Shown here: positions 6,123-59,533 of the stretch, in pieces | Layout of the letters: each line of letters starts with the position of its first letter | Position numbering within the stretch: position 1 is the stretch's first letter | Virus record (IMG/VR): IMGVR_UViG_3300011113_000123 | Location: 62,001 to 126,000 of that record | DNA length: 64,000 nt | Direction: 5' to 3' (one strand) | DNA from: a virus | Program-made: the position numbers and the translations under genes | The notes under the pieces: generated by a model | Seen by the model: only the letters and a program-made list of their open reading frames with translations | What the model was told of the DNA's origin: nothing | Databases searched by the model: none

Positions 6123-6331
6123 AGAAAAAGACTAAGAAACCCGCAAGGAAACCAACTCGCAACGATCTAGATAAGATGTCGTATGAAAAGCGAGAACGAG
6201 TAAGAAAACAGCTAAGAAAAGGGGCTGTATATACAAGAGCGTTCAAGACACCACAATCATTCGGTGCAGCCAGTCCAGTTAGACATGTTCCGATTGAAGA
6301 GTATTTGAAAGAAATCAAGAGTGATTCGTGA
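6119..6331 (+). CDS. small basic protein, 70 aa
   Basis: Overlaps the polymerase stop by 4 nt (ATGA). The N-terminal 35 residues are very rich in Lys/Arg (MKKKTKKPARKPTRN), suggesting nucleic-acid binding, and the C-terminus is more ordinary (VPIEEYLKEIKSD). No family is recognised. Coupling to gp43 hints at a replication-linked role. Confidence 0.7.
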   Translation: MKKKTKKPARKPTRNDLDKMSYEKRERVRKQLRKGAVYTRAFKTPQSFGAASPVRHVPIEEYLKEIKSDS

Positions 6332-7130
6332 AATCTTAGTGCATCAGGTAGATGCTATGTCTCACGACAGCCGCGTAGCTGTTCTACTATCAGGCGGAGT
6401 CGATAGTGTATCTATTGCGTTTGCTGCGCATCGGCTCGGAAAGAAGGTAGTCGCTTACACGTTTCATCTCGATGGTCAGCCATCATATGATTCGCAGAAA
6501 GCAGTCGAGATCGCAAAGATCATGGAATGGGATTATCGTGTCGTGGTAGTCCCAACCAATAACGTAGAGCAAGACTTCATTCGTTTGGCTAAAGAAGTTC
6601 ACTGCGAAAAGAAAACACACTTCGAGTGTTGCTTTCCGTTTCTATACGTGTACCCACAGATCAAGGAGTATGAAGTTCTAAGTGGATGGGCTGCTGACGG
6701 ATACTATGGTGTATCGAAAAAAGCGAACATTCACTACAAGCATACGAAGGAAAAGTTCGACGAGTTTCGTAAAGACTACTTTGGTGCTAACAATCGCGCT
6801 GGATATATGTGGCATAAACGAATCGCGGAGAAGTTGCATAGCAAACGATTCATTGCTCCGTATCTAGATCCAGACGTTGCTAAGTTCTTTATGAGCAAAG
6901 ATTGGTATGAACTGAATCAGCCATATCAAAAGCATCATGTAGTCGAAGCATTCACTGAGTTCAAGCAGATTGGTGGTGTGAAGAAACATATCAATCTGCA
7001 ACTAGGATCAGGAATAGATAAGCTATTCGAGAAAGAAGTATTGAGCAACACCAATCTTAATTTTTACAATCGCAAGCGAGTTATGGACGTATGTCGTGAC
7101 TGGGCAAACAAAGGAGCAGAGTTGTGGTAA
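6321..7130 (+). CDS. PP-loop ATP pyrophosphatase, asparagine-synthase-like
   Basis: The 269-residue protein carries the N-type ATP pyrophosphatase loop LLSGGVDSVS (SGGVDS at residues 24-29), which adenylates a carboxylate or carbonyl before amide or thio transfer. Two Cys in FECCFPF (about residue 95) and a Lys/Arg-rich C-terminal half follow. There is no glutaminase domain, so it is not a complete asparagine synthetase. Candidate roles are base or tRNA modification. The start is GTG within the previous gene; an internal ATG at residue 13 is the alternative. Confidence 0.75.
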   Translation: MIREILVHQVDAMSHDSRVAVLLSGGVDSVSIAFAAHRLGKKVVAYTFHLDGQPSYDSQKAVEIAKIMEWDYRVVVVPTNNVEQDFIRLAKEVHCEKKTHFECCFPFLYVYPQIKEYEVLSGWAADGYYGVSKKANIHYKHTKEKFDEFRKDYFGANNRAGYMWHKRIAEKLHSKRFIAPYLDPDVAKFFMSKDWYELNQPYQKHHVVEAFTEFKQIGGVKKHINLQLGSGIDKLFEKEVLSNTNLNFYNRKRVMDVCRDWANKGAELW

Positions 7131-42134: not shown

Positions 42135-42212
42135 CCTCTGTTAGTGTAGCGGTCAAACATACCCGCCTTTCAAGCGCGGAGATCATCGGTTCAAATCCGA
42201 TACAGAGGACCA
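42135..42212 (+). tRNA. tRNA-Glu(TTC)
   Basis: Acceptor CCTCTGT/ACAGAGG, loop CTTTCAA with one mismatch in the anticodon stem, encoded CCA. Confidence 0.88.
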
Positions 42213-53387: not shown

Positions 53388-53940
53388 TACCAATAAGTGC
53401 ATGGCAAATATCGTATCGAAGATTGAAGCACAGACTACCGTCGAAAAGCAGGTTGAGTTTCTTCAGTTGCATAGTTCATATGCTTTGAAGGCTGTACTGG
53501 GTTATGGTATGGATCCGAACGTGAAGTGGTTGCTTCCTGATGGTGATCCGCCGTATCGCGGTTTGTTTGACGCTTCTGACCAGGAAGGTCGTTTCTATGT
53601 CGAGTGCAAGAAGCTGATCTATTTCGTTGATAGTGAAGAAGGTCGTCAGGTTAAGCAGATCAAGCGTGAACAGTTGTTCATCCAGGTGCTTGAGTCTATT
53701 GATGCTCGCGACGCGAAGCTGCTTCTTCGCATGAAGAATCGTCAGATCAATATCAAGCCCGAAGCTATCGCTCAGGCGTTCCCTAACATGTGGGAAGCGT
53801 GGGGTCGTACTGTTGCGAAGCCGGTCGTGATCCAGGAGGTAGCTCCTCAGGAAACTCCTTTTCGTACCGAAGAAGCAGAAGTTCCTGTCAAGCGTGGTCG
53901 CGGGCGCCCTAAGGGTTCTACTAAGAAGGAAGTAGCATGA
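53377..53940 (+). CDS. DUF6433-like protein with AT-hook
   Basis: 187 residues. KAVLGYGMDPNVKWLLPDGD, PPYRGLFDASDQEGRFYVEC and ESIDARDAKLLLRMKNRQI match a T4-like phage family (recalled as DUF6433). A C-terminal RGRGRPKGS is an AT-hook-like minor-groove binder. DNA binding is likely; role unknown. Confidence 0.72.
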   Translation: MALDTNKCMANIVSKIEAQTTVEKQVEFLQLHSSYALKAVLGYGMDPNVKWLLPDGDPPYRGLFDASDQEGRFYVECKKLIYFVDSEEGRQVKQIKREQLFIQVLESIDARDAKLLLRMKNRQINIKPEAIAQAFPNMWEAWGRTVAKPVVIQEVAPQETPFRTEEAEVPVKRGRGRPKGSTKKEVA

Positions 53941-54515
53941 ACACCGCCTTTATCATTGGTAACGGAACGAGTCGCTCTGACTTCGACCTAAAGAGGCTCA
54001 AGCCTTATGGAACGATCTATGGATGTAATGCGCTTTATCGTGATTTCCCTGATCACTCTATTCCTGACTTCCTCGTTGCTATTGATGACGGTATTATTGC
54101 AGAGATAGAATTCAGTAGGTTCCCGTCTAATCGTTTCATCGTTCCACCGATTGATGAGCGCTGGGAACCTTCTGAGTGTAACATCGGTCGCCCTCGTAGC
54201 AACGCTGGTATGAATGCTATGCGTGAGGCTATCAAGGCTGGGCATAATCAGCTGATCTGTCTTGGGTTTGACTTCCTCATTGGTGGTAAGAATCAGTTCT
54301 TGTCGAATCTGTATGACGGCACCGAGAACTATGGTCCAGACACTCGCGCGAGCGCGGGAGACAATCCTGGTCGTGTCAACTATCTTCAGTGGTTGGTACG
54401 TAAGCATCCAGACGTTGACTTTATCTTTATCTATCCAGATATCGAAAATGTGACAGTGATTAACGGCGATAATGTCTATTACAACACATTTGAAAAACTC
54501 TTGAAACATACATAG
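53937..54515 (+). CDS. sialyltransferase/DUF115-like sugar enzyme
   Basis: 192 residues, Rossmann-like. AFIIGNGTSRSDFDLKRL, YGTIYGCNALYRDFPD, DFLVAIDDG and QLICLGFDFLIGG recall the DUF115/MptE-like or GT29-related fold that binds nucleotide-activated substrates. It lies next to the TET-like cassette, overlapping the previous gene by 4 nt, and could belong to it. Confidence 0.55.
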   Translation: MNTAFIIGNGTSRSDFDLKRLKPYGTIYGCNALYRDFPDHSIPDFLVAIDDGIIAEIEFSRFPSNRFIVPPIDERWEPSECNIGRPRSNAGMNAMREAIKAGHNQLICLGFDFLIGGKNQFLSNLYDGTENYGPDTRASAGDNPGRVNYLQWLVRKHPDVDFIFIYPDIENVTVINGDNVYYNTFEKLLKHT

Positions 54516-54544: not shown

Positions 54545-55954
54545 ATGGTTAAGAAAATCTATCTTGAACATTCAGATCGAAACAAGATGGATCACTTGTT
54601 GGGTAAGTTCCTCGATCACGACTGCTATGATCTAGTGCTCACCGAGGATACCGATGTTTACGAACCACTGACTCAGTTGCAGATTGACCAGGGCGAAACA
54701 CACAGCGAAAAGAATCTGCTATGTAAGTTCCGTAAAGGTGTGTTCAGCAAAGAAATGACGGACGCGGCATATAAGGCGCTGCGTTCTGGTGCCATCATGT
54801 CAGACAATCGTGGTCTTGCTGCTGGTATCTTTCGCGACACAGCATATCAGAAGCTGCCTGACGGCGAAGGTTCTCGTCGTTGGGTTACAGAGCGCGAGAG
54901 AGCTGTCCTTCAGTATATGTTGAAGGATTCTCCTAAGACTGTTAATGAAGAAGATCAGTTAGAAGAGATCTATAAGAGTAATCCAGACACTCCTCTTCAG
55001 GGGCGCGGTTCTGGAGCGCATAAAGCTAAGGGTGATATTGGCGCAGGTGCTATCTGGATTGTTAACAAGTCGAAAGACTTTGTTTTCGATGACTGGTACA
55101 ACTCTGTAAAAGATAAGAGCCCGGCTGAGCGTCGTATGGCTGCGGATCATATTCTCAATGATCTAATCTCAGACACGACTTATGCTAACGGTGTTCGCTC
55201 AGGCGTTGGTGGCTTCATGGATCGTTATCCGCGTATTCCGTTCTGTCGCGAGACAGGTTGGAGTGCGAGCCATCATAAGCTATACGAAGCTGCGCTTCCG
55301 TTGTTTGAACAGGCTTCGAAAGTGTTCGAGGAAAATCTACCAGTGCGCTTTGCTGGTCAGATGGAAGCTATGAAGCAGCTTGGTCCAGATTGGCAAATCG
55401 GTAACACGCCATACACTACTCTAACCATCAATCGCGACTTCCGCACAGCTGCTCATCGCGACGTTGGTGATCTGTGTGAGTCGTGGGAGTCTCATGCAAA
55501 TCCACGCGGCTTCTCGAATCTGCTAGTATTAGACAACGGAAAGAGCTATAATGGATTCTATCTTTGCTTCCCTGAGTTTCGTGTAGCGGCTGATATTCGT
55601 GCTGGCGATATGATTATGATGAACGCACATCGTATTCATAGCAACAGCCCAGCCTTCGACTACGAAGAAGGCTTCGAGCGTATGTCAGTTGTGATGTACT
55701 TCCGCGAGTCTATGCTGGAGTGTGGTAGCCGTAAGTATGAAGATACACGTCGCAGCTTCGTGTACATGCGCGCGAACAACAAAGAACATCCTTTGTGGAA
55801 AGAAGGATGGAATGGTGTATCGCCTGGAATGTGGGATACTGAAGAATGGGGTGAGTACCTCGGAAACAATGGTCTCACTGACGAAGCAGAAGAAGTCCTA
55901 AGTAAGATTGGTAAGAGTGATCGATTAGTAACTCTCGAAGATTACTTTGCATAA
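54545..55954 (+). CDS. TET/JBP-like 2OG dioxygenase
   Basis: 469 residues. TLTINRDFRTAAHRDVGDL holds the iron site (H304, D306). GFSNLLVLDNGKSYNGFYLC, AADIRAGDMIMMNAHRIHSN (distal His near 365) and ERMSVVMYFRESML (2OG-binding Arg) follow the TET/JBP pattern. Phage enzymes of this family oxidise 5-methylcytosine in DNA to 5-hydroxymethylcytosine, later decorated by glycosyltransferases. A methyltransferase supplying 5mC is not in this window. AAGGAGAG precedes the start, and the next genes fit sugar activation and transfer. Confidence 0.82.
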   Translation: MVKKIYLEHSDRNKMDHLLGKFLDHDCYDLVLTEDTDVYEPLTQLQIDQGETHSEKNLLCKFRKGVFSKEMTDAAYKALRSGAIMSDNRGLAAGIFRDTAYQKLPDGEGSRRWVTERERAVLQYMLKDSPKTVNEEDQLEEIYKSNPDTPLQGRGSGAHKAKGDIGAGAIWIVNKSKDFVFDDWYNSVKDKSPAERRMAADHILNDLISDTTYANGVRSGVGGFMDRYPRIPFCRETGWSASHHKLYEAALPLFEQASKVFEENLPVRFAGQMEAMKQLGPDWQIGNTPYTTLTINRDFRTAAHRDVGDLCESWESHANPRGFSNLLVLDNGKSYNGFYLCFPEFRVAADIRAGDMIMMNAHRIHSNSPAFDYEEGFERMSVVMYFRESMLECGSRKYEDTRRSFVYMRANNKEHPLWKEGWNGVSPGMWDTEEWGEYLGNNGLTDEAEEVLSKIGKSDRLVTLEDYFA

Positions 55955-55969
55955 ATCAAGAGGTCGTTA

Positions 55970-57532
55970 ATGTATTGCGTGATTCCTGCGGCAGGGCGCG
56001 GTGTTCGTTTCAACGAACTAGGTAAGAACTATCCGAAGTGCGTCCTGCCATATAAAGATATTCCAATCATCGTTCATAACATTAGACTGGCTCTCGATTC
56101 GGGAGCCAGAGAAGTTTCTATAGTCGTCGGTCATCAGGGTGATAAGATTCGTGAGATCGTCGGAATGTACTTTCCGGAAGATCCGCGCATCATCTTCTCG
56201 GAGTATCAAGAAACAGCCTCAATAGGTGGTCCTGGCGTTTCAATCTACTGCGGTATCCCTGATGACATCGGTGATGAGTCTGTCCTGATTCTTCTTTCCG
56301 ATATCGTCGTAGAACATGTTTTGATTAACAATTCTAAAACATCCTGGATTTCTGTTCAGCAAGTTCCTGATTGGGAACGCTGGTGTATGGCTGAGACTAA
56401 AGATGGAACAATCGTAAAGTTCCACGATAAGCCGCGCGATATGCCTCCGACTAGTCATGCGGTCAGCGGAGTCTATTACTTTAGAAACGCATCGTTGTTC
56501 CGTAGTTGTTTGATTGATGCTATCAAAGATACTCGTTATGGCGAAGTTCAGATTTCTTCAGCGATGTCGCGCTATATGGAAAAGGAATCTATCTATACGA
56601 AGCCAATCAGGATCGTCGATTTCGGTACGTTGCAAGAGTATCTCGAGAATCGTGGTGTAAAGAACTCGCGTTCGTTCAATACGCTCTATCATTCTGGTGA
56701 TGAAACTACGATCACGAAAACATCTGTTGCTCATCCAGAAAAGATTCATGCGGAAGCTAACTGGTACGACAATCTTCCGACGCCTATCAAGATGATGACA
56801 CCTCGCATCTTTGATAAGACGTTGTATGGTGATCGACCAATGTATACGATGGAGCGTATCGACAGCCCTACGTTGCGTGAGCTATATCTGTATCTCGAAT
56901 CTGATCCTATCTTCTGGGCTGAAATCTTTACGAAACTCTTTGATCTAACCGACAAGTTCAAGTTCTACACGAAGCCTGGTAAGCCAGAGTTCTTCGATCG
57001 TGTCGTAGACAAGACGTTCTCGAGATTCACAGAAGTCGATGCTGATCTCATAGAGAACGACGATCATGCGTTCATGAACAAGTTCTATGAAATGAATCAG
57101 CAGGGTATGTTCAACGTATTCCCTGACTCCCTGTTCCATGGCGACTTCTGCTTCTCTAACATCTTCTATCATCCAGGCAGCAAGCATATCAAGTTCATCG
57201 ATCCGCGCGGCGACGCGTATGGTAACATCTTGTATGACTTGGCTAAGATCACACATTCAGCATACTACCCATACGATTATGTTGATGCGGAACTCTATCT
57301 AAATAAGAGTGGCGAAAAGCTATACATCTTCGATAGTGGCAAAGAAGTCGCTCGCGAAGCGTACAAGAAGCTCTTCGTTGCCAAATACGGTGAGTCAACG
57401 TGGCAGATCAATTTGTTCTTGACAGCTACTCTGTTTTTGAGTATGATTCCCTTACACTCACACAATAAGGTCAACCAAGAGTTATTCTATGCGCTCTATC
57501 GTAAGGCGGCCGCAGACAGCGGATTTGTTTGA
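55970..57532 (+). CDS. nucleotidyltransferase-kinase fusion
   Basis: 520 residues. Residues 1-235 are a sugar-type nucleotidyltransferase (PAAGRGVRFNELGKNYPKCV with GxGxR and PKxxLP, VSGVYYFRN, YGEVQISSAM). Residues about 255-520 are an APH/choline-kinase-like domain with SLFHGDFCFSNIFYH (catalytic HxD...N) and HIKFIDPRGD (metal Asp). Such fusions activate a small alcohol, sugar or amine by phosphorylation and NTP coupling. It likely makes the donor for the glycosyltransferase at 57865. Confidence 0.82.
   Translation: MYCVIPAAGRGVRFNELGKNYPKCVLPYKDIPIIVHNIRLALDSGAREVSIVVGHQGDKIREIVGMYFPEDPRIIFSEYQETASIGGPGVSIYCGIPDDIGDESVLILLSDIVVEHVLINNSKTSWISVQQVPDWERWCMAETKDGTIVKFHDKPRDMPPTSHAVSGVYYFRNASLFRSCLIDAIKDTRYGEVQISSAMSRYMEKESIYTKPIRIVDFGTLQEYLENRGVKNSRSFNTLYHSGDETTITKTSVAHPEKIHAEANWYDNLPTPIKMMTPRIFDKTLYGDRPMYTMERIDSPTLRELYLYLESDPIFWAEIFTKLFDLTDKFKFYTKPGKPEFFDRVVDKTFSRFTEVDADLIENDDHAFMNKFYEMNQQGMFNVFPDSLFHGDFCFSNIFYHPGSKHIKFIDPRGDAYGNILYDLAKITHSAYYPYDYVDAELYLNKSGEKLYIFDSGKEVAREAYKKLFVAKYGESTWQINLFLTATLFLSMIPLHSHNKVNQELFYALYRKAAADSGFV
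57419..57447 (+). promoter_or_regulatory. candidate internal promoter
   Basis: TTGACA (57419-57424), 17 nt, TATGAT (57442-57447), inside the kinase domain and 42 nt before the HAD start. It could separately express HAD and glycosyltransferase. Confidence 0.5.
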
Positions 57533-57881
57533 ACTTAGCCTCGTGGTTGATCTGGACCACACACTATGCGTTGGCGATCTTAGTATAGCGAGTTCAGCTG
57601 AACGATACGCCAACGCAAAGCCAATTGCAGAAACAATCAAGAAATTACAAGAAGCGTACAGTAACGGCTGGTACATCACCATTCTTACTGCACGTCATAT
57701 GCGTTCTTGTCAAAACGATGCAGAGTTTGCGTTCGAGAAGCTAGGTAAGATCACTGAAGACTGGCTTGATCGACACGACGTTCCCTTCGATCAGCTTGTC
57801 TTTGGTAAGCCATATGGTATGTGGTACATCGACGATAAAGCAATGACACTGGATACCTTCCTACATGAATTCCAAGCCTAA
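57489..57881 (+). CDS. HAD-family phosphatase
   Basis: 130 residues. VVDLDHTLC (DxDxT, D21/D23) is motif I, ILTARHM motif II (Thr/Ser), QLVFGKPYGMWYIDDKAM motifs III-IV. This short capless HAD type is common in capsule and sugar-phosphate loci. Overlaps the previous gene by 44 nt and the next by 17 nt. Probably dephosphorylates an intermediate of the modifying group. Confidence 0.82.
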   Translation: MRSIVRRPQTADLFELSLVVDLDHTLCVGDLSIASSAERYANAKPIAETIKKLQEAYSNGWYITILTARHMRSCQNDAEFAFEKLGKITEDWLDRHDVPFDQLVFGKPYGMWYIDDKAMTLDTFLHEFQA

Positions 57882-58695
57882 GATTATCATCACTACGTTC
57901 ATGCGCGAGGACAAGCAGAAAGCTGTGTTCCAGATTCCTGCTTCGCTGCATGAAAACGTTTATATGTTCACTCGCGAAGATCGCGTCGATGAGCTGCGTA
58001 AGTATGTTCCCGAAACGATTCGCATCATCGGTAATCCGATGGATATCGACGGTATCGCTGATATCCGTCAGCGTTGTATCGATCATGTTCCGAAGGGTAA
58101 GGTGTGGTTCATCGACGATCTCGCTACGTTTGGTTGGCGCGATCAGAATCTAAAGCAGTTCAACGATATGCCCGAGCAGAAGTTCGTTGAGATGTATGCC
58201 ACGCTCGACAAAATGCTCGACGACTATATGCAAGTCGGTTTCTCAGCTCGTGGTGGCAACAATCACGTGACTGATCCGTTCAAGGAAGTTGGTCGTGCAT
58301 ACACCACATATGGATTGCGCTCAGACTGGATGGAGCGTGAGGATATTCGATTCGATGGTATGTATCGACAGAATCCTAACGTGAAGCTCTACGAAGACTA
58401 CTGGATCACGCTCTCCATGCTGACCAAGGGTTTCAAGAACGCTATCATCTACGACTATTTCTTCAACTACACTCACAACAACACAGGCGGCAATTCTACG
58501 TTCCGTACGCTAGAACTCCAGGAGCAAGCCGCTCACGAACTCCATAGACACTTCCCACAATTCGTCACAGTAGAAACGAAGGAAGGGGTATGGGGAAAGA
58601 TGGGCATGGAGAATCGTAAGGAAGTTCGCATTCAATGGCAGAAAGCATATCAAAGCTCACAGGTCACTAACACGCTCGACTCGTTCTTCGAATAA
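57865..58695 (+). CDS. TET-associated glycosyltransferase-like protein
   Basis: 276 residues. IDGIADIRQRCIDHVPKGKV, WFIDDLATF (DD at 84-85), YEDYWITLSMLTKGFKNAII and NTGGNSTFRTLELQEQAAHE match the TAGT family (GREB1-related) that is encoded beside phage TET enzymes and transfers a sugar to hydroxymethylated cytosine. The donor-binding DD differs from the usual DDD by Leu at the third position. Gene context with the TET-like enzyme is the main support. Confidence 0.75.
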   Translation: MNSKPKIIITTFMREDKQKAVFQIPASLHENVYMFTREDRVDELRKYVPETIRIIGNPMDIDGIADIRQRCIDHVPKGKVWFIDDLATFGWRDQNLKQFNDMPEQKFVEMYATLDKMLDDYMQVGFSARGGNNHVTDPFKEVGRAYTTYGLRSDWMEREDIRFDGMYRQNPNVKLYEDYWITLSMLTKGFKNAIIYDYFFNYTHNNTGGNSTFRTLELQEQAAHELHRHFPQFVTVETKEGVWGKMGMENRKEVRIQWQKAYQSSQVTNTLDSFFE

Positions 58696-58706
58696 CAGGA
58701 AATCCT

Positions 58707-59159
58707 ATGAACACCGGAATAGGCTATGTCGAATATCGTAATCTGTTTGAGGGCATCCGTAGAGAAAAGCCAGGAGACGAAAGATATCTAATCTACTTCG
58801 GTCGAGCCCATGTTCAAGATCACATAACTAAAGTTGTTTCTAGGGGCCCACTGAAGATTGGTCGAGGAAAGTTCGCAACTGCTCTGATGCGCGGGAGGAA
58901 TCAGCCTGGAGTAGACTTTCGCATATATTCAGAAATCATCGTTCCTTACAATCAAGACACATACGATTGTGAACAACTGATAAAGTCTGTTCTGAAACAT
59001 CGTAACATGAAGATGTCGCAGAACCAGCAGGAACTTTATGATATCAGAGACGAAGAGCTCGAACAAACAGTCAGCGCGATAGTTGAAATCATAAAGGCAG
59101 AAATGCCTGACATCAAGCTGCTGGAAGTTAACAACTACTTTCTAAAAAAGGAAACCTAA
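58707..59159 (+). CDS. T5orf172/GIY-YIG-like protein
   Basis: 150 residues. YLIYFGRAHVQDHITKVV, LKIGRGKFATALMRGRNQPG and VPYNQDTYDCEQLIKSVLKH follow the T5 Orf172/MUG113 version of the GIY-YIG nuclease fold (KIG for YIG, Arg, late Glu). A helical C-terminus follows. Near a DNA-modification cassette it might cut unmodified DNA; this is inference. Confidence 0.65.
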   Translation: MNTGIGYVEYRNLFEGIRREKPGDERYLIYFGRAHVQDHITKVVSRGPLKIGRGKFATALMRGRNQPGVDFRIYSEIIVPYNQDTYDCEQLIKSVLKHRNMKMSQNQQELYDIRDEELEQTVSAIVEIIKAEMPDIKLLEVNNYFLKKET

Positions 59160-59533
59160 TGGACACTCTCATGACCGCAGTGCAAATCGTGATTGCCCTT
59201 GGTATCGGTTACTTCGTAGGTAAGATACTCGCAGGATTCGTTAGCGCATATTTTGCAAAGAACGAAGAACCTGTTATGATTGGAAGTGTGTCTGGTGATG
59301 ACGTACTGGATTTCGATAAGAGCGAAGTCCCGTTCATTCCTGTTCGTATCATTAAAGAGCACAACCAGTATTACGCTTGGTTCTCTGTGAACGAAAAGTT
59401 CATTGGTCAGGCGACTACCATCGAAGAGATCCATAAAGCGGCTTATGAGCAGGTTCTCAGGCAGATGGGGCTTCGGTGCGTGTTCACCCAGGAAAAGATC
59501 AAGGCTAAGCCCAAGACGAAAAAAGGGCCTTGA
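59159..59533 (+). CDS. membrane-anchored protein, 124 aa
   Basis: One N-terminal membrane helix (about 5-31), an acidic linker, and a small globular part (QYYAWFSVNEKFIGQATTIE) ending in a Lys-rich tail. Shares an ATG/TAA base with the previous gene. No family. Confidence 0.6.
   Translation: MDTLMTAVQIVIALGIGYFVGKILAGFVSAYFAKNEEPVMIGSVSGDDVLDFDKSEVPFIPVRIIKEHNQYYAWFSVNEKFIGQATTIEEIHKAAYEQVLRQMGLRCVFTQEKIKAKPKTKKGP

Follow-up and report, generated by a model that had tools for sequence, protein, structure and literature searches.

Four adjoining phage genes, encoding a TET/JBP dioxygenase, a nucleotidyltransferase-kinase fusion, a small HAD phosphatase and a TAGT glycosyltransferase, are established by sequence comparison as one mobile module. 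We are confident that the predicted logic of this module is oxidation of a base, activation of a sugar and glycosylation, and thymine seems the probable target. The initial annotation had described the same kind of cassette with cytosine as the modified base; the cassette and its gene families stood up to the analysis, whereas the choice of cytosine lost its footing, the sole C5-methyltransferase homologue in the genome being of the CmoX type.

The window, that is, the whole stretch of DNA analyzed here (64,000 nucleotides), covers bases 62001-126000 of G000, a virus record of 157,580 bases that genome comparison identifies as a phage of the T4 superfamily and a relative of Stenotrophomonas phage DLP6. 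No close DNA relative was found in the isolate collection. The ends of the record overlap by ~350 bases at 82% identity and split a baseplate gene, which points to a genome that is circularly permuted and nearly complete, so that the absence of a gene from G000, which was read stretch by stretch, has some weight; several of the comparison records are metagenomic and possibly fragments. Dinucleotide counts gave no useful signal. One of 27 tRNA genes (window 42135-42212) has a UCA anticodon, is assigned to SeC by ARAGORN and may read UGA.

The four genes and their recurrence

The four ORFs occupy window positions 54545-58695 on one strand (+), with gaps of +15, -44 and -17 nt, and, as initially described, they are in frame and carry their catalytic motifs. 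The first encodes the TET/JBP dioxygenase (469 aa; 54545..55954, +), a predicted 5-methylpyrimidine (probably thymine) hydroxylase that matches PF12851 (6e-14, 52 bits against a Pfam cut-off of 34.9) and phrog_24024 (1e-100) and resembles human TET2 structures weakly by profile (3e-4); its HxD...H iron triad, H304, D306 and H365, is invariant in seven aligned homologues. At the other end of the cassette, the TAGT glycosyltransferase (276 aa; 57865..58695, +), predicted to transfer a sugar to a hydroxymethyl base, matches PF20691 (9e-7, 29.4 bits against a cut-off of 27.5) and phrog_842 (1e-43), is 45% identical to its DLP6 homologue and carries RQ68, DD84-85 and GGNSTFR208-214. Both family assignments, originally made from the letters of the sequence, were thus upheld by profile matches above cut-off.

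Between these genes lies the sugar-activating trio of phosphatase, kinase and nucleotidyltransferase, with all three active sites intact. The fusion protein (520 aa; 55970..57532, +), predicted to make a sugar-1-phosphate and then an NDP-sugar, consists of a nucleotidyltransferase (residues 1-228; PF00483, 1.9e-8) and an APH-type kinase (residues 230-520), the latter matching PF01636 at 1.2e-3, which is under the family cut-off and counts against the full explanation developed below. Among 32 homologues, H390-G391-D392...N397 and D411 of the kinase and D217 of the nucleotidyltransferase show no variation, and D111 shows hardly any. The AlphaFold2 model built with 32 diverse homologues reached a mean pLDDT of 88 (eight close homologues gave 36), and its N-terminal half falls on the GalU/RmlA enzymes (Foldseek, 1.5e-13), in agreement with the original reading of this gene as a fusion. 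The HAD phosphatase (130 aa; 57489..57881, +), predicted to act on a sugar phosphate, had likewise been named correctly: D21, D23, T67, K107, D115 and D116, which make up all four HAD motifs, are invariant in eight homologues. The protein resembles small capsule phosphatases (PDB 1xpj, 7e-14, and also 9iqw; TIGR01689 at 9e-18, under the cut-off), and a Pfam search gave no match above cut-off.

Two further genes flank the cassette. Directly upstream of TET, in every locus examined of the window's clade, is a gene for a 192-aa protein (53937..54515, +; phrog_30607) that had no match in a Pfam search and is possibly a glycosyltransferase. The ORF after TAGT (58707..59159, +) resembles T5orf172, a GIY-YIG-like family (PF10544, 0.003, under the cut-off), and probably stands outside the pathway.

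In the scheme that we propose, the TET/JBP enzyme would hydroxylate thymine in DNA at its methyl group, yielding 5-hydroxymethyluracil in the manner of JBP in base J synthesis. The HAD phosphatase would strip the phosphate off a host sugar phosphate, the kinase half of the fusion would phosphorylate the resulting free sugar at C1, and the nucleotidyltransferase half would convert this sugar-1-phosphate to an NDP-sugar, from which TAGT would move the sugar onto the hydroxymethyl group. The phage would in this way equip its own DNA, after replication, with a glycosylated 5-hydroxymethyl-pyrimidine; that the final base is new, as originally suggested, is plausible, sugar identity aside.

Some 29 distinct records on a family map of 170 loci contain the four-function set, more than chance would be expected to produce. 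With the fused gene, four orders occur: TET-fusion-HAD-TAGT, TAGT-HAD-fusion-TET, TET-TAGT-HAD-fusion and TET-TAGT-fusion-HAD. The fusion is split in Synechococcus phage S-CBWM1, where kinase and nucleotidyltransferase have a gene each, next to those for TET, TAGT and HAD. The retention of the set through this shuffling of order argues for one pathway. The isolated phage DLP6 (KU682439), which has a backbone related to that of G000, encodes all four proteins (30-45% identical), but its cassette is inverted and lies in another genomic place, and the phage has neither a C5-methyltransferase nor CmoX.

Some of these loci merit separate mention. The HAD ORF of DLP6 (L009:25112-25492) is unannotated; in the adjoining stretch (L009:25452-28525), the fusion, AAY80_029, has been named ModA (PMC5349666) and the TET gene is annotated as an SNF2 repair protein, and the remaining annotation of the cassette is hypothetical. 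The DLP6 paper includes a digest of the phage DNA with 18 enzymes, and its text is silent on which of them cut. At three loci (L156, L157 and L164), a ~620-aa protein encoded beside TET matches HAD as well as APH kinase profiles, giving a further fused version of the sugar arm. Genes for a UDP-galactopyranose mutase or an annotated inositol-1-phosphate synthase at the TET loci of C48C1 (L024:9345-10352) and Cr30 (L025:12272-13453) suggest further sugars or polyols.

Cytosine, thymine and the source of the methyl group

A cytosine target would call for a supply of 5-methylcytosine, and the first reading proposed looking for a DNA cytosine methyltransferase elsewhere in the genome. Exactly one PF00145 match exists in G000, at G000:50950-52089, outside the window. 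Once counted in support of cytosine, this C5-methyltransferase homologue came to argue the opposite way, because its best solved relative (8YF3, 9e-104) is CmoX from Synechococcus phage S-B43, an enzyme that carboxymethylates cytosine with Cx-SAM as the donor and refuses SAM (PMC12783734). The published marks of CmoX are an SPPC motif and Arg-350 (PMC12783734); the G000 protein has SPPC at residues 97-100, and its Arg353 aligns with R350. Next to this gene is one for a CmoA-like protein (G000:52086-52769; TIGR00740 at 6e-23, under the cut-off), about half identical to S-B43 CmoA. The third component, CmoY, is an asparagine-synthase homologue, a predicted 5-carboxymethylcytosine amide ligase, and was located by direct comparison with S-B43 at window 6321..7130 (+; 53.6% identity over 252 aa, 6e-88; PF00733, 2e-14), a search for an AMP-binding domain (PF00501) having given no match. 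G000 thus has homologues, 47-54% identical, of all three S-B43 proteins, and differs from S-B43 in the added TET/TAGT cassette and in the position of the CmoY gene, ~16 kb from those for CmoX and CmoA. With all three present, cytosine in G000 appears to be handled by a hypermodification pathway of its own, the predicted products being derived from 5-carboxymethylcytosine.

The co-occurrence of CmoX and CmoA with the TET cassette in G000 and G003 might be taken to mean that the two sets of genes form one cytosine pathway, in which TET hydroxylates the carboxymethyl group of CmoX-made 5-carboxymethylcytosine and TAGT glycosylates it. We give this scheme hardly any credence: the carboxylate is already used by CmoY (PMC12783734), most phages of the window's TET clade are without CmoX, and one phage (G016) has CmoX without a TET match, so that the two pathways are separable.

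Residue 350 offers a quick sequence test to tell carboxymethyltransferases from methyltransferases. In the wider methyltransferase family (L170-L211, L305-L307), where several of the Arg and Leu loci are near-copies so that the counts are not all independent, CmoA adjoins all 19 loci with Arg at this position and TET is nearby in none, and among the 26 loci with Leu, CmoA adjoins none and TET adjoins 20; in several of the other six the methyltransferase gene is near a contig end. The TETs beside Leu-type methyltransferases form a clade of their own (support 100/100) on a very long branch, and the TET of the window falls outside it together with its relatives. Moreover, a PF00145 search found no match in nine relatives, of 139-169 kb, that encode TETs of the window's clade, namely, DLP6, Cr30, S-CBWM1, C48C1 and the metagenomic G004-G007 and G011 (these five given as 146-170 kb).

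These observations bear directly on the most serious rival, in which 5-methylcytosine, made by the host or occasionally by the CmoX-like enzyme, is oxidized by TET to 5-hydroxymethylcytosine, to which TAGT adds the phage-activated sugar. The TET and TAGT families are confirmed, methyltransferase-TET pairs do exist in other phages (the phage Melnitz and the Leu-type loci), and TAGT enzymes of known product act on hydroxymethylcytosine derivatives, that of T6, for example, on modified hydroxymethylcytosine (PMC13216743), which is why cytosine has to be taken seriously; a host C5-methyltransferase could also supply 5-methylcytosine, and this counts against the full explanation. Nevertheless, we regard this route as unlikely, given that the genome encodes no Leu-350 methyltransferase and has instead the Arg-type CmoX with adjoining CmoA, that CmoX of S-B43 takes only Cx-SAM, that DLP6 and S-CBWM1 encode the same functions with no C5-methyltransferase, and that the methyltransferase-linked TETs are a separate clade.

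For a TET enzyme that has no supply of 5-methylcytosine, thymine is the natural 5-methylpyrimidine. The preference for thymine comes, then, from the CmoX type of the sole methyltransferase, the negative search for a thymidylate-synthase-family gene, the relatives that have no PF00145 match, the separation of the TET clades and the thymidine-type arm swap described below. The full explanation, comprising oxidation of thymine, sugar activation, transfer by TAGT and a separate cytosine pathway via CmoA, CmoX and CmoY, is one that we believe only slightly more than we doubt. Among the points that count against it is the restriction of S-B43 CmoX to GC motifs (PMC12783734), which leaves other cytosines free.

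Exchangeable finishing arms and the sugar

In relatives with TETs that are ~79-86% identical, the segment from TET to a conserved ORF of ~120 aa is swapped. In the window, this right-hand landmark is a 124-aa ORF with an N-terminal hydrophobic stretch (59159..59533, +), the homologues of which follow the sugar arm in each of the three types found. The type A arm, that of the window, consists of the fusion, HAD and TAGT; type B (L033, L036, L050 and L053) contains a nucleotide-sugar epimerase (PF01370, 1e-51) together with one TAGT-like protein or two; and type C (L037-L039) comprises ADDT (PF18724, 1e-20), a P-loop kinase (PF18751, 5e-12) and a 255-aa protein. ADDT and a kinase of the PF18751 family are also encoded near the TETs of ~40%-identical relatives. 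A comparable set in phage Tonitrus, made up of a TET-like protein, aGPT-Pplase2 and a 5hmU kinase, has been assigned to hypermodification of thymidine (PMC11955845). The swapped arms would be explained by a hydroxymethyl intermediate common to all, to which different finishing steps can be applied, 5hmU being a better fit than 5hmC. The exchange at one site of an activated sugar, an epimerized sugar, and a kinase with ADDT points to a way in which phages re-equip their DNA against nucleases. Still more tentatively, and with some doubt outweighing belief, we propose that both pyrimidines of this phage are hypermodified by independent post-replicative pathways, cytosine via CmoA, CmoX and CmoY to a carboxymethyl-amide base, and thymine via the JBP-like TET and TAGT to a base-J-like glycosyl-5-hydroxymethyluracil with a phage-activated sugar, the thymine arm being one that close relatives can swap as a whole.

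The HAD-fusion pair has a wider distribution. HAD adjoins the kinase ORF in 73 of 80 loci from bacteria and archaea (L222-L301), mostly with a further nucleotidyltransferase, and the neighbors, judged by eye, look like surface-polysaccharide genes. One could imagine from this that the sugar arm helps to make a glycan of the surface or the virion and has TET as a neighbor only fortuitously, which we consider highly improbable: the arm is co-located with TET and TAGT repeatedly, in four gene orders, different DNA-modification genes take its place at one site, and in RB69-type phages and Thanatos, HAD-fusion pairs are associated with sugars on the cytosine of DNA. In Thanatos, the fusion (TH1_060) and HAD (TH1_061) adjoin a thymidylate-synthase-family gene, as do HAD and the fusion in Enterococcus phage 9183; the DNA of Thanatos bears a deoxypentose on cytosine, and inactivation of TH1_060 nearly halts propagation (PMC12838424). 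A search for a thymidylate-synthase-family gene in G000 and DLP6 found none.

The arabinosyl-cytosine module of RB69 (Mosigvirus) and LC53 shares HAD and the nucleotidyltransferase-kinase with the window, and, in a comparison with viral structure models, the two halves of the window's fusion match RB69 ORF053c and ORF052c in fold, both of which have been published as candidates for the activation of arabinose (PMC6024577). That module differs, however, in adding an SIS isomerase and a thymidylate-synthase-family enzyme of its own, and its fusions are distant: those of the TET type group in a single clade that excludes the arabinosyl ones (support 100/100). Arabinose, brought to mind by RB69, LC53 and Thanatos, was considered as the sugar and not adopted, because the fusion belongs to the separate clade and the SIS isomerase (PF01380) has no match in G000 or DLP6, an absence that also counts against the full explanation. 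A pentose is the leading guess.

Comparison with known systems

An enzymatic analogy for the sugar-activating trio comes from cell-wall recycling, where MupP, AmgK and MurU, a HAD phosphatase, an APH-type anomeric kinase and a nucleotidyltransferase, act in series. The enzyme series in the window is the same, with the kinase and nucleotidyltransferase fused; the fusion scores 33 bits against the MurU model, for which the cut-off is 250, making this a working analogy rather than a case of membership.

Glycosylation of cytosine by a phage methyltransferase-TET-TAGT series has reportedly been described by Burke in 2021 and Pyle in 2024. There, as here, TET is followed by a TAGT-type glycosyltransferase, whereas the phage studied here has no methyl-type methyltransferase, a TET of another clade and a dedicated trio of sugar-activating functions. 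The usual reading of phage TET/JBP enzymes is that they act on 5-methylcytosine; the window and related loci indicate a large clade that has no partner for methylation, and the implication would be that base-J-like DNA is made by viruses.

Base J of kinetoplastids, produced by JBP and then a glucosyltransferase, has in common with the predicted pathway the TET/JBP domain and the sequence of oxidation before glycosylation, and thymine, its substrate, is the base proposed here. The differences are that the glycosyltransferase of the window is unrelated, that the NDP-sugar genes are the phage's own, that the system is viral and that thymine is deduced from genome content only. If thymine is indeed the base, the module would constitute a viral parallel of the trypanosome base J.
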